Positions 47,528 to 52,803 of a stretch of 64,000 nt of DNA are shown piece by piece. How positions within the stretch are numbered: position 1 is the first letter of the stretch; each line of letters opens with the position of its first letter. The translations under genes were made by a program, and so were the position numbers. The DNA is from Candidatus Zixiibacteriota bacterium (GTDB lineage: Bacteria > Zixibacteria > MSB-5A5 > GN15 > FEB-12): positions 1-64,000 of the forward strand of contig JAHOYZ010000022.1 in the NCBI GenBank assembly GCA_019038695.1. The letters run 5' to 3'. Under the pieces are notes generated by a model, which saw only the letters and a list, made by a program, of their open reading frames with translations, was not told the DNA's origin and did not search any database.

Positions 47528-48340
47528 CTAACTTGTAGCCTGAAACATGTGAACATCCTGCTGCGGGTACGGAATCGAAATCCCTTCAGCATCAAAGGTC
47601 AATTTCACTTTCTCAGTCAAATCCCAGAGCACAACCCAATAGTCTGCGGTCTTGACCCATGGGCGAACAACAAAATTGACCGAACTGTCGGCCAGTTCCG
47701 AAACTGCGACTACCGGTGCCGGGTCCTTGAGAATGCGATCATCCTCTATCATCAAGCGTTCGAGAATTCCCTTGGCCTTTTTCAGGTCGTCATCGTAGCC
47801 AATACCGAACACCAGATCAATACGGCGGGTTTCCTTGGCGGAGTAATTGACAATGTTGCCGCCGGTGATATTACTGTTGGGTATTATAACTCTCTTATTG
47901 TCGCCCGTTCTCATGATAGTACTGAAAATGCCAATAGCCTCGACTACACCCGTCGAACCTCCGGCCTCAACAAAGTCACCGTTCTTAAAGGGACGGAAGA
48001 TAATCAGCATAACGCCAGAGGCAAAATTGGACAGCGATCCCTGCAGGGCTAAACCGATGGCCAAGCCAGCGGCACCTATGATGGCAATGAACGAAGTCGT
48101 TTGCACGCCGAGTTGGTTCAAGGACGCCAGCAGGACAAACACCATCAAGCCAATTCGAGTCATGGCAACTACAAATGAAATCAGGGTATCATCAACATTA
48201 GCCTTCTTCATTAGACGTCGCACAATACCGGTGATAATACCGACAACGATGCGACCTATAATCAGAATCGCAAGAGCGCCGATAATCATGGGGCCGTACG
48301 CAACAGCCCACTCTACGATTTTGTCACCTAAGTTCTCCAC
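47528..48340 (-). CDS. mscS: Small-conductance mechanosensitive channel MscS
   Basis: A 270-residue inner-membrane channel releasing solutes on osmotic downshock. It has three N-terminal helices, with the Gly/Ala-rich pore helix TM3 AAGLAIGLALQGSLSNFA, then the beta domain (DFVEAGGSTGVVEAIGIFST, VIIPNSNITGGNIVNYSAKE) and the C-terminal alpha/beta part. The start is GTG 48340 with GGAGG 5 nt upstream. Length matches the minimal MscS class. The DUF3078 gene follows closely. Confidence 0.94.
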   Translation of the reverse strand: MENLGDKIVEWAVAYGPMIIGALAILIIGRIVVGIITGIVRRLMKKANVDDTLISFVVAMTRIGLMVFVLLASLNQLGVQTTSFIAIIGAAGLAIGLALQGSLSNFASGVMLIIFRPFKNGDFVEAGGSTGVVEAIGIFSTIMRTGDNKRVIIPNSNITGGNIVNYSAKETRRIDLVFGIGYDDDLKKAKGILERLMIEDDRILKDPAPVVAVSELADSSVNFVVRPWVKTADYWVVLWDLTEKVKLTFDAEGISIPYPQQDVHMFQATS

Positions 48341-48424: not shown

Positions 48425-49246
48425 CTAAAAGGACTCGTCTTCCGACGGATAACTGCCGTCGGTAACATCTTTGATGTACTGACTGATTGCGTCCAGGATA
48501 GTCGGTGTTAAGTTCGCATACTCGCGCAGGAACTTGGGATGAAATCCCTCGGGGCGAAACCCCAGCATATCATTGGTAACTAACACCTGCCCGTCGCAGT
48601 TTGTTCCTGCCCCGATACCGATAGTAGCGGTGGTATTGAGCGCGGCGGTTATGTCGCCGGCGATGTCAGCTTCGAGTAGCTCCAATACGATCGAAAAACA
48701 GCCCGCCTCCTGCAATGCCAGGGCGGACTCCATGAGATACGATCGAGATTTTTTACCTCGTCCCTGCACTTTTGGACCACCAAAGCGATTAATCGATTGG
48801 GGCGTAAGACCAATATGCCCCATGACCGGGATACCACATTCGATTACCCGTTTGATGGTCGGAGTCATCTCTATACCGCCCTCCATCTTCACAGCCTCGG
48901 CGCCGGCCTCTTTGAGAAAGCGACCGGCATTGAGAATAGCTGTCTCCTCTGACGGTTGAAACGACAGGAATGGCATATCGGCGATTATCAATGCTCTGTT
49001 TGTTCCTCTGGCGACGGCAGCGGTGTGAGCCACCATAATGTCCATCGTTATAGGCAAAGTGGAATCCCAACCATGCACAACATTACTGGCCGAATCGCCA
49101 ACCAGAATAGAGTCGATCCCGGCTTTGTCCAGCAGAGAGGCCATGAAAGCATCGTAGGCAGTAAGGACAGTAATCTTATGTCCTTTTGATTTCTTGCGGA
49201 GAAAAGTACCGACCGTGTGTTTTTTCCTGTCAGTTGTGTGCGACAT
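48425..49246 (-). CDS. panB: 3-methyl-2-oxobutanoate hydroxymethyltransferase PanB
   Basis: A 273-residue enzyme making ketopantoate from alpha-ketoisovalerate and methylene-tetrahydrofolate, the first step of pantothenate/CoA synthesis. Family blocks are ITVLTAYDAFMASLLDKAGI, ILVGDSASNVVHGWDSTLPI, VKMEGG, PVMGHIGLTPQSINRFGG and IGIGAGTNCDGQVLVTNDML. It is last in a run of six closely packed genes (7 bp after the kinase gene). It uses folate, which fits its position next to folK and folB. Confidence 0.96.
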   Translation of the reverse strand: MSHTTDRKKHTVGTFLRKKSKGHKITVLTAYDAFMASLLDKAGIDSILVGDSASNVVHGWDSTLPITMDIMVAHTAAVARGTNRALIIADMPFLSFQPSEETAILNAGRFLKEAGAEAVKMEGGIEMTPTIKRVIECGIPVMGHIGLTPQSINRFGGPKVQGRGKKSRSYLMESALALQEAGCFSIVLELLEADIAGDITAALNTTATIGIGAGTNCDGQVLVTNDMLGFRPEGFHPKFLREYANLTPTILDAISQYIKDVTDGSYPSEDESF

Positions 49247-49252
49247 AATTAA

Positions 49253-49912
49253 TCAGATTGCAGCCAAATCACCGGCTGGCGAGTAGTATTTCTTGCCAGC
49301 CACCGGTTTGCCGATCTGCTCCACAAGGTCATCAAAGTGACCGGGCGTATTTACGAAATCAATGTTATCAGTTCGAACCACCAGTAACGGTGTTTCCTGG
49401 TAGTCAAAAAAGAAATAGTCATAGGCTTTGTTGAGACTGTCGATATAGTCGGTGTCAATGGATCGTTCAAAGGGAAAGTTGCGTTTGCGTATTCTCCGCA
49501 GTAGCATTGGCGTCGAAGCTTGCAAATAAATCACCAGGTCCGGTTTGGGAATATCCCCGGCCAAAACCGGTGCAATGCGGTTGTACAATGCCAACTCACG
49601 GTCGGAGAGATTCACCGAAGCAAATATGGAATCACGAGCATAGAGATAGTCGGCTACAATCCGTCGGGCAAAAAGATCACGGGTCTGCAACTGTTGCTGT
49701 TGCTGAAAACGGGACAACAGAAAAAATAGCTGGCAAGAGAATCCGTAGCGTTTGCGATTCCTGTAGAAATCAACCAGGAACGGATTACCGAAGACCTCGT
49801 CGTTCATCTGTTCGGCACCGAGAGACTTGGTCAGCATTTCGGCAAAGGACGTTTTGCCAACGCCGATTACGCCCTCGACGGCGATATAGTTGGGTTCAAA
49901 TTTGTCGTGCAA
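49253..49912 (-). CDS. Deoxynucleoside kinase (dAK/dGK family)
   Basis: A 219-residue P-loop kinase phosphorylating deoxynucleosides for salvage. The P-loop is EGVIGVGKTSFAEML, followed by the ADYLYARDSIFASVNLSD region (the DRS-like motif reads ARDS) and RRIRKRNFPFERSIDTDYID (lid and substrate Arg). The TTG start (49912) is supported by AAGGA 5 nt upstream. It overlaps the end of folK by 17 bp. Deoxyadenosine or deoxyguanosine is the likely substrate by family. Confidence 0.88.
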   Translation of the reverse strand: MHDKFEPNYIAVEGVIGVGKTSFAEMLTKSLGAEQMNDEVFGNPFLVDFYRNRKRYGFSCQLFFLLSRFQQQQQLQTRDLFARRIVADYLYARDSIFASVNLSDRELALYNRIAPVLAGDIPKPDLVIYLQASTPMLLRRIRKRNFPFERSIDTDYIDSLNKAYDYFFFDYQETPLLVVRTDNIDFVNTPGHFDDLVEQIGKPVAGKKYYSPAGDLAAI

Positions 49913-50405
49913 CTTGATCCTTGTACAGTATTATCTCCTCGCGACCTTCTTCGCTGAGGAATTCCGCCACCGGTCGTTTGGTCACCGGGTGCACCAATTC
50001 AGGGTCAATCTCAAGCAACGGAACCATTGCAAACGGACGATTCAGCAATTCTCGATGGGGGACTGACAGCGTGTCGGTCTCAATGATTTCATCGCCAAAG
50101 AGAAGAATATCCAGATCCATTGGTCTCGGTTCTTTCTTTCCTTTACCGATCCGACCAAGGTTTTTTTCAATCAGTTCAAGCACGTTCAGCAGTTCACTCG
50201 AGAGATATTGGTAGTCTACCTTGACCACCTGGTTCATAAAGGATGGATTCTCACCCTGCATACCCTGGGCCTCTGAAACGTAGATGCCGGACTGGGCAAT
50301 TACTTCCAGGCCGGGGACAGCTTCGAGCTTCGTCACCGCCGCCGTAAGGTTCTTATAGCGATCACCGAGATTGGAACCAATAAGGATATATACTGTCGTC
50401 GTCAT
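49896..50405 (-). CDS. folK: 2-amino-4-hydroxy-6-hydroxymethyldihydropteridine pyrophosphokinase FolK
   Basis: A 169-residue enzyme transferring pyrophosphate from ATP to the pterin precursor in folate synthesis. Motifs are YILIGSNLGDRYKNL at the N-terminus, EKNLGRIGKGKKEPRPMDLD and the following ILLFGDEIIETD (Mg-binding Asp pair), and HRELLNRPFAMVPLLEIDP. Its start lies 8 bp after the folB stop, so the two consecutive pathway enzymes are in pathway order. Confidence 0.96.
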   Translation of the reverse strand: MTTTVYILIGSNLGDRYKNLTAAVTKLEAVPGLEVIAQSGIYVSEAQGMQGENPSFMNQVVKVDYQYLSSELLNVLELIEKNLGRIGKGKKEPRPMDLDILLFGDEIIETDTLSVPHRELLNRPFAMVPLLEIDPELVHPVTKRPVAEFLSEEGREEIILYKDQVARQI

Positions 50406-50413
50406 GCCAACTC

Positions 50414-50812
50414 CTAATCTTGCTCTTGGTTGTTTATCAACTTGGACACATCCGACTGATAACGTGTGATTTCGGCCTCCACATACTTGATTTCACCGGC
50501 AATAGGCGGTGTCATCTTGCGGACTCTTAATGTTACTCTGTAAACGGGAAAGGTGTCAAGCACTTTGGTGGCTAAGCTCGTTGCCAATCTTTCCAGGAGT
50601 GCGAAAGCAGAGCCTTCGACCGTGTTCTTAATCAACGCATAGACTTCTGAATAGTCGATGGTATCAACCAACTCATCGGTCTGTCCCGGCTCGGAAAGAT
50701 CAACTTCTAATTCGCAGTCAACTTCGTAGCGGCGTCCTGTCTCTTTCTCGGCAGCAGTGACACCATGGTAGCCATAGAATGACATGCCTGCGATGCGAAT
50801 AATATCCTTCAC
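50414..50812 (-). CDS. folB: Dihydroneopterin aldolase FolB
   Basis: A 132-residue enzyme cleaving dihydroneopterin to the FolK substrate. Blocks are GMSFYGYHGVTAAEKETGRR, LVDTIDYSEVYALIKNTVEG, ALLERLATSLATKVLDTFPV and RVRKMTPPIAGEIKYVEAEI. GTG 50812 overlaps the stop of the aminotransferase-like gene as GTGA, so translation is coupled to it. Confidence 0.95.
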   Translation of the reverse strand: MKDIIRIAGMSFYGYHGVTAAEKETGRRYEVDCELEVDLSEPGQTDELVDTIDYSEVYALIKNTVEGSAFALLERLATSLATKVLDTFPVYRVTLRVRKMTPPIAGEIKYVEAEITRYQSDVSKLINNQEQD

Positions 50813-51990
50813 TTTTTCCGGTCCCGTCTAAGGAGGTGCTGTTTCCGTCGGACACGTTCCTGCGCCAGACGGTAGTCATCAATCGGCGCTGTGGTTGAGA
50901 AACGAAGGAATCCTTCTCCGGCATTCCCGAACGCAATGCCAGGTACAGTCTGGATGCGGAATCGTCGAAACAGTTGGGCCGCCGCCGATGATGATTGACG
51001 GCGACGTTTTATTTGCGCCCACACAAACGGCACTGTCTCGAACCCTGCCTTATCCAATCCCAACGATCCCAGCAGCGAAACCACCTCCGCATTGGCTACG
51101 GTCAAGTTGTTGCGGAGCTGGAGCAAGTCCTCGGAGGGGAACTTGCGCACCGCGGCCAGGGCCATATCGACACAGTATTTCGGAATGCTCAGGGGCAGTA
51201 ACTTACGCGACTGCTCCAAACCAGCGATCATTTCTCGATTTCCGACTGCAAAGCCAAGCGGGATCGCCGGCAACCCAAACGTGTAGGCGAACGAACCGAC
51301 TTCCACACCGACTTTTTTCCCTCCGCGAACAGCCAACAGCGAGGTCGGCTTACGCCCGGAGAGGGTAGAGTAAGCGGTATCGTTGACGATGGCAAGATTC
51401 TCGCGGGAGGCAATCCAGATCAGGTCGGATAGTTCCTTTTCGGTTAGCTCGGCTCCGGTCGGATTATGGGGTGTATTGAGAAACAGTAGCCTTGCCACGC
51501 GTCCCAGTCTGGAATTGATTCGATCAAAATCAGGGAGCCAGTGATTACGAGCACTGATGCCATAGTGTACCGGTTGTCCTCCGCACGCTGTCGCCAATCG
51601 TCGATAGGTCGGTAAACCGAGTTCTGGTACAAAAACGATATCTCCATGATCGACAAAGGCAAGCGCGAGCTGCCACAACAGCCCGGATATTCCCGGTCCC
51701 AGAATAATCTCACGGCTCGGGTTCAGACGAACACCATGATAAGTGGAGTACCAGCCGGCCAGAGCCTCTCGCAGATCATTCAATGATGATTCGTCAGCGG
51801 GTCGGAGGTCATCTGCTGAAAGTGAAGAGGTTGTTTCGAACGGTACAGGCCATTGAAATGTGGCCAGATCAAGAGTACTTGTTTTTTTAATTCTGATCGA
51901 ACGCGCCAATCCCGGTATGAACGACAGCAGATCGGGCGGCAATTGATGAAGGCGATCAGCTTTGTCCACCAGAACTTTTTTGACCGGCAT
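50809..51990 (-). CDS. Aminotransferase-fold protein lacking the PLP lysine
   Basis: A 393-residue protein of PLP fold type I, class I/II aminotransferase family. ATG 51990 is preferred (AAGGA 7 nt upstream). Conserved features include LGPGISGLLWQLALAF, LNTPHNPTGAELTEKELS (Asn/PLP region), NDTAYSTLSG (the PLP-contacting Asp/Tyr loop) and a C-terminal FLRFSTT with the substrate Arg. The segment that should read SxSKxxxxxGxRxGF is SFAYTFGLPAIPLGF: the Schiff-base Lys is Tyr236 and the phosphate-binding Arg is Pro244. Without the lysine, normal transamination should fail. It is coupled to folB by a GTGA overlap and lies 17 bp after the aldolase gene. A role as a regulator, scaffold or unusual PLP-binding protein is possible; function is unknown. 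Confidence 0.82.
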   Translation of the reverse strand: MPVKKVLVDKADRLHQLPPDLLSFIPGLARSIRIKKTSTLDLATFQWPVPFETTSSLSADDLRPADESSLNDLREALAGWYSTYHGVRLNPSREIILGPGISGLLWQLALAFVDHGDIVFVPELGLPTYRRLATACGGQPVHYGISARNHWLPDFDRINSRLGRVARLLFLNTPHNPTGAELTEKELSDLIWIASRENLAIVNDTAYSTLSGRKPTSLLAVRGGKKVGVEVGSFAYTFGLPAIPLGFAVGNREMIAGLEQSRKLLPLSIPKYCVDMALAAVRKFPSEDLLQLRNNLTVANAEVVSLLGSLGLDKAGFETVPFVWAQIKRRRQSSSAAAQLFRRFRIQTVPGIAFGNAGEGFLRFSTTAPIDDYRLAQERVRRKQHLLRRDRKK

Positions 51991-52007: not shown

Positions 52008-52667
52008 CTACTGCTTCTCGTCCCAGGCCTGGTCGAGCTTATCGCGCATCTTCTCCAACCTCTGAAAATCATCCGATGGAATACTATCAAGATTGCCCAG
52101 CTGACGCGCCAGATGTACTACCCGGGCATAATGCTCCACGACTTCGTGTCGATGATAAGCCTCGTTCAACGAGTGGCCCACCGTTAATAGACCATGATTA
52201 CGCAAGACAAAGGCGTTATTGCTTTCGATGAACGGCTCAAGAGACTTGGGAACGGCATCGGTGCCGGGAGGGGCATAATCGGTCAGGGGCATCCCTCCTA
52301 TCGAAACGACCACCTCTGGCAGAACGTCTTCGGCCAAATGGATACCTGCCACCGCGAAGGCAGTCACATAGGGCGGATGAGAGTGCACACAAGCCTGCAC
52401 GTCGGGTCGATTGCGATAGACAAAGGTGTGCATGAGGTACTCGCTTGAGGCTGTGCGGGAGCCTTGCAGGTGTTTACCGTTCTGATCGACAATAACCAGA
52501 TCGTCGGGATTTAGATTTCCTTTAGCCAGACCGGACGGTGTAATCATAATCCGGTCATCATCGAGACGCACTGAGATGTTGCCATCCGTACCCGCTATCA
52601 TCCCGCGTTCATAGAGTCGGCGTCCAAGGAGCACCAACTCCTTCCTGATTGTAAACGGTGAAGCCAT
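52008..52667 (-). CDS. Class II aldolase/adducin family protein
   Basis: A 219-residue zinc aldolase related to L-fuculose-1-phosphate aldolase and L-ribulose-5-phosphate 4-epimerase. The zinc ligands are in VHSHPPYVTAFA and the HRHEVVEHYARV helix. GTDGNISVRLDD and VLRNHGLLTVG are further family marks. ATG 52667 is used. It leads a six-gene run to panB. The substrate is uncertain; in this setting a role in supplying a pterin or pantothenate-pathway aldehyde is only a guess. Confidence 0.85.
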   Translation of the reverse strand: MASPFTIRKELVLLGRRLYERGMIAGTDGNISVRLDDDRIMITPSGLAKGNLNPDDLVIVDQNGKHLQGSRTASSEYLMHTFVYRNRPDVQACVHSHPPYVTAFAVAGIHLAEDVLPEVVVSIGGMPLTDYAPPGTDAVPKSLEPFIESNNAFVLRNHGLLTVGHSLNEAYHRHEVVEHYARVVHLARQLGNLDSIPSDDFQRLEKMRDKLDQAWDEKQ

Positions 52668-52803
52668 AATTAGCCGCAAGGTAGGGGGTCATCGAGCGAT
52701 TGTCAACAACGACGCTGATTTCATGGCAACTGTTGAAACTAGAGCACTTGCTTGAAGAGATTAAAATATACTAGAGTTGCATATTCTGCGAAGCCTTGTA
52801 CCG

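Follow-up and report, generated by a model that had tools for sequence, protein, structure and literature searches.

A lysine-less aminotransferase homologue, probably descended from DapL, in a folB-folK-panB operon of Zixiibacteriota

Gene content of the locus

The window analysed here is the whole stretch of 64,000 nucleotides at the start of contig JAHOYZ010000022.1 of a Zixiibacteriota bacterium. It harbors a block of six genes on the minus strand, the second of which encodes an aminotransferase homologue, referred to as AT in the following.

52008..52679, minus strand: class II aldolase/adducin-type protein, first gene of the conserved block (Pfam)
50809..51990, minus strand: AT, Lys-less aminotransferase homologue of a degenerate DapL lineage, 393 aa (profile matches, residue comparison, AlphaFold2 mean pLDDT 91.5)
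50809..50812, minus strand: GTGA overlap of AT stop and folB start (-4 spacing in 40/52 loci of the family)
50414..50812, minus strand: folB, dihydroneopterin aldolase, start GTG at 50812 (Pfam and NCBIfam)
49896..50405, minus strand: folK, HPPK (Pfam and NCBIfam)
49253..49912, minus strand: deoxynucleoside kinase, dNK (Pfam)
48425..49246, minus strand: panB, ketopantoate hydroxymethyltransferase (Pfam and NCBIfam)

A gene for an MscS-type mechanosensitive channel is located directly 3' of panB (window positions 47528-48340, minus strand).

The AT frame runs uninterrupted from the ATG at 51990 to the TGA at 50809-50811. The first-pass annotation had described an intact frame coupled to folB, which is in line with the four bases (GTGA) shared by the AT stop and the folB start. 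Besides the 40 loci of the source family with a 4-base overlap, seven of the 52 overlap by 1 base, some genomes contributing two loci to this count. AT is assigned to the class I/II aminotransferase fold by its match to Pfam Aminotran_1_2 (PF00155; E 1.5e-33, 116.9 bits versus a gathering score of 19.7) and by its predicted structure, a complete aminotransferase fold, for which Foldseek retrieved BacF and DapC/DapL structures as nearest folds (TM about 0.8).

The order aldolase II - AT - folB - folK - dNK - panB recurs in about 18 families across the phylum. The aldolase II gene was not found in families f7 and f12 or in parts of f9 and f14, and dNK is inserted between AT and folB in f13 and f18. 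At one locus of family f6 (L049, genome G081), AT and folB are about 4.7 kb apart, so that the operon is split there. With dNK and panB, the operon also holds unrelated functions, which speaks against deducing a role of AT from this context.

Residues of the PLP site

The positions that distinguish AT from DapL, or that it has kept, are given below. The numbers Asn194, Asp222, Arg386, Tyr70* and Arg266 refer to what we take to be the equivalent residues of aspartate aminotransferase, which has this fold.

51799..51801, minus strand: codon 64, Pro at the site of the Tyr70*-type Tyr of DapL (Tyr in 100% of 31 DapL, Pro in 72% of the family)
51679..51693, minus strand: codons 100-104, GISGL at the phosphate-loop site (GSKEG in DapL; comparison with DapL)
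51463..51465, minus strand: codon 176, Asn of NPTG (Asn194 equivalent), kept (45/46 in the family)
51379..51381, minus strand: codon 204, Asp (Asp222 equivalent), kept (46/46 in the family)
51283..51285, minus strand: codon 236, TAC, Tyr at the Schiff-base Lys site (plus strand reads gta; Tyr in 45/46 of the family)
51259..51261, minus strand: codon 244, Pro at the phosphate-binding Arg site (42/46 in the family)
51001..51003, minus strand: codon 330, Arg fixed only in the Lys-less clade (43/44 in the family, 30/35 in other families, variable in DapL)
50902..50904, minus strand: codon 363, Arg (Arg386 equivalent, carboxylate site), kept (100% in 79 Lys-less proteins, where read)

The segment containing Tyr236 reads SFAYTFGLPAIPLGF in AT, its counterpart in DapL SLSKTYNMTGWRIGF. 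The two substitutions proposed earlier, the Schiff-base Lys replaced by Tyr236 and the phosphate-binding Arg by Pro244, were confirmed at the codon level. When 44 family proteins were compared with 31 Lys-bearing DapL, Lys at site 236 and Arg at site 244 were each present in 100% of the latter, while the family has Tyr and Pro. The losses extend further than previously described, namely to the Tyr70*-type Tyr (Tyr64, mostly Pro in the family), the phosphate loop (GxI[ST] in the family) and the ring-stacking Tyr126 (96% in DapL; Leu, Val or Ile in the family). Ser235 is gone from nearly half of the 44 family proteins. AT is thus devoid of the catalytic Lys with which DapL forms the PLP aldimine, and of the PLP phosphate ligands of DapL (the Arg266-type Arg, the GSKEG loop and Tyr70*). 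No substitute invariant Lys was found in the family alignment, where no Lys exceeds 91% at any position; the best conserved ones, at positions 4, 5 and 10, were rejected as replacements since they are N-terminal and interchange with Arg. The loss of aminotransferase chemistry in AT is strongly supported by these sequence comparisons.

Other parts of the pocket were retained. Asn176 of NPTG, Asp204, Tyr207 and the C-terminal Arg363 are all present, as the first-pass annotation had stated, and the Asp and carboxylate Arg expected of a catalytic aminotransferase are invariant in the family (Asp204 in 46 of 46 proteins), Arg363 being present in every protein where it was read. Since these four residues hold the PLP ring and the substrate carboxylate, PMP or an amino acid could still be bound. 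In three Lys-less proteins of family f7 (L065, L070 and L071), the PLP ring Asp is replaced by Arg. Newly fixed in the source family are Trp47, Tyr143, His175, Asn203, Gly239-Leu-Pro, Pro321 and Arg330, of which Arg330, His175, Tyr143 and Pro321 are conserved in other Lys-less families as well and not in DapL. Furthermore, 78 of 99 Lys-less proteins carry a basic motif at the N-terminus, [KR][KR]xxx[DES][KRA][AST], as opposed to none of 95 other aminotransferase homologues.

Distribution and conservation of the Lys-less proteins

A match to AT was obtained in 97 of the 98 related genomes searched, in a few of which the best match was only a distant Lys-bearing aminotransferase. Within the source family, site 236 is Tyr in 45 of 46 proteins and Phe in the remaining one. 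Homologues with Lys and Arg at both sites, which had been named in advance as the sign of a recent mutation or an error, were not found in sister genomes of this family. A sequencing error or recent mutation was rejected on the basis of the 45 Tyr-bearing proteins. Orthologues occur throughout the source phylum and are almost all Lys-less; in its other families, site 236 is occupied by Phe, Tyr, Leu, Thr, His, Val, Ala, Pro, Asp or Met, or is deleted. Outside the phylum, all matches listed in a scan of genome contigs carry the Lys.

These distributions bear on the idea that AT is still an enzyme which binds PMP or PLP non-covalently and catalyses a Lys-independent step, as the His-type sugar dehydratases (ColD, E1) do. 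The invariant or nearly invariant Asn176, Asp204, Tyr207 and Arg363 would suit such an enzyme, as would the His at the Lys site in families f12 and f19. However, every phosphate ligand and the ring-stacking Tyr are gone, the Asp204 position is Arg in f7, and site 236 is so varied, or even deleted, in sister families that no common chemistry can depend on this one residue. A cofactor-using enzyme is therefore considered improbable.

In a tree calculated with a quick method, which contains some long branches and from which L186-L215 were left out, 66 sampled operon-linked proteins formed a single branch (SH-aLRT 100, length 0.55). The first split in the Lys-less clade is L116, which has Met at the Lys site but has not lost the phosphate Arg, the Tyr70*-type Tyr or the ring-stacking Tyr126. 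As judged from the sequences, the Lys, phosphate and ring-stacking residues went in one old loss at the base of the phylum. In one of the operon-linked proteins (L193), site 236 is Lys, combined with Asp in place of the phosphate Arg and a degenerate loop; this protein counts against the explanation preferred below, and its Lys is either a late retention or a reversion. Within a single genus, site 236 is Lys in L193 (genome G110) and Thr in L189 (genome G111), the phosphate Arg being gone from both.

AT might also be a slowly decaying relic, retained only because of its place in the operon and its translational coupling. Its divergence is faster than that of most operon neighbours (57-71% identity versus 62-89%), and some lineages have lost it. 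This is in contrast to its intact state in the majority of about 130 genomes from many families, to the new residues fixed in the clade, and to the substitution rates: in the family comparisons dS was saturated, so that a dN/dS ratio was mostly not computable, while dN was about 0.2-0.38, which indicates purifying selection. Mere decay is distinctly improbable. Since the Lys-less gene was kept in the same operon in about 18 families and has fixed residues of its own, a new function is likely.

Descent from DapL

The best NCBIfam model for AT is LL-diaminopimelate aminotransferase (TIGR03540), which it matches with 193.2 bits, far below the cut-off of 593.25; an authentic DapL from Nitrospirota (L101), used as a control, scored 655.5 bits and passed. 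The score falls from 655 bits in L101 via 430 in L116 and 337 in L061 to 193 in AT, a series that fits a progressive departure from DapL. A Lys-bearing dapL is immediately followed by folK in 15 loci, which belong to Nitrospirota, Desulfobacterota, Omnitrophota and others. As the Lys-bearing gene of other phyla directly precedes folK, the ancestor was probably the dapL of a dapL-folK operon, which is probably the older arrangement, with the Lys-less gene as its descendant. The tree places the Lys-less clade beside DapL groups with no strongly supported sister, and the best profile and the folK synteny point to DapL.

Could AT still produce LL-DAP by an unusual mechanism? The genomes of the source family have DapF, while Ddh, a DapD domain, and DapE or DapL above cut-off were not found in them, which speaks for such a role. 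AT is a poor candidate for it. The Lys and all phosphate ligands are missing, DapF persists in three genomes from which AT was deleted (G077, G094 and G095), the basal families f6, f11, f16 and f17 have an additional Lys-bearing DapL-like gene elsewhere in the genome, and the source genome encodes other Lys-bearing class I/II aminotransferases. We consider continued DapL activity highly improbable. One of the latter enzymes is encoded adjoining dapF and is a candidate LL-DAP-forming enzyme, because the canonical DapL, DapD, DapE and Ddh were not found. In the source genome (G000:C9, L182:6405-8547), dapF is located in a trp operon. The Lys-bearing aminotransferase encoded beside it is similar to the aminotransferase domain found in regulators of the MocR/PdxR type. 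A frame of about 782 aa that includes a Lys-bearing aminotransferase, apparently a fusion, was observed at L184:3452-5791 (G081) and in many genomes, and is conserved across the phylum. A replacement of PabC by AT was rejected, as class IV aminotransferases were found in 30 of 31 genomes, usually two per genome (PabC and IlvE counted together).

Natural deletions and the role of AT

Several genomes have lost AT. In genus g44 (G071, G077), aldolase II is directly followed by folB and AT is cleanly absent. The order in G095 is aldolase II - dNK - folB - folK - panB, while G094 has folB - folK - panB only; G004 and G080 are devoid of both AT and folB. Altogether, at least three lineages deleted AT and yet keep folB and folK, as well as panB where the stretch reaches it. 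Since folB, folK and panB persist without it, AT is no obligate scaffold and is not needed in an absolute sense.

The first-pass annotation had suggested a new function, for example as a regulator or scaffold for the folate and pantothenate enzymes. The new function itself still appears likely for a kept, coupled and altered protein, whereas a scaffold needed by these enzymes does not agree with the deletions. An obligate structural subunit for FolB, FolK or PanB, comparable to LCB1, would explain the conserved operon order and the 4-base folB overlap; it is unlikely in view of the persistence of folB and folK in G071, G077, G094 and G095, the dNK gene between AT and folB in f13 and f18, and the distance of about 4.7 kb in G081.

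The explanation we prefer, with a probability of roughly 60%, is that AT is a retired DapL, a pseudo-aminotransferase with an accessory, non-catalytic role in the folB-folK-dNK-panB operon. A DapL descendant would have stayed in the old dapL-folK operon after the PLP chemistry was lost at the base of the phylum, and would then have been kept in its accessory role. PLP is presumably not used by AT any more. The former cofactor pocket, in which the carboxylate Arg, the Asn and the Asp are kept and the phosphate cup is gone, may bind another small ligand or have a structural role. AT might modulate or sense the pathway without being essential to it; it would most likely do so by binding to one of the operon enzymes, for instance FolB or the aldolase. 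From the operon context we infer an accessory role, probably that of a ligand-sensing or modulating partner; a regulatory or optional partner role is possible. Only tentatively, AT can be seen as an allosteric regulator, a member of a phylum-wide family in which the vacated PLP pocket was remodelled into a sensor for a metabolite of the folate or pantothenate pathway that tunes FolB or a neighbour.

The annotation 'aminotransferase' or 'DapL' for AT in these genomes is wrong, and annotators should be cautious here. The locus documents how a class I/II aminotransferase lost its PLP chemistry long ago and phylum-wide, and the parental dapL-folK context can still be recognized. Given this context, the intermediate L116 and the natural deletions, the birth of a pseudoenzyme can be traced stepwise.

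Comparison with known systems

A paper describing the Lys-less AT family was not found in a limited search of the open-access literature. The closest known folds, BacF and other class I/II aminotransferase structures (6l1n, 2dou and 2x5d; TM about 0.8), are those of active PLP enzymes with Lys, unlike AT. DapL (TIGR03540 / PRK09276) resembles AT in its fold, full length and best profile match, and in Nitrospirota and others its gene is likewise placed immediately before folK. AT differs from it in its score (193 bits versus the cut-off of 593) and in lacking the Lys, the phosphate Arg, the GSKEG loop and the ring-stacking Tyr. The closest functional precedent is the LCB1/SPTLC1 subunit of serine palmitoyltransferase, which is devoid of the Lys (PMC3794620) and, like AT, is a fold-type-I PLP protein that was kept after its Lys was lost. 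LCB1, however, acts together with a Lys-bearing paralogue in the same reaction, whereas the AT operon encodes no such paralogue and AT is connected with its neighbours by operon linkage. Fold-type-I pseudoenzymes are thus already known as a kind, and AT would be a variant of that kind.
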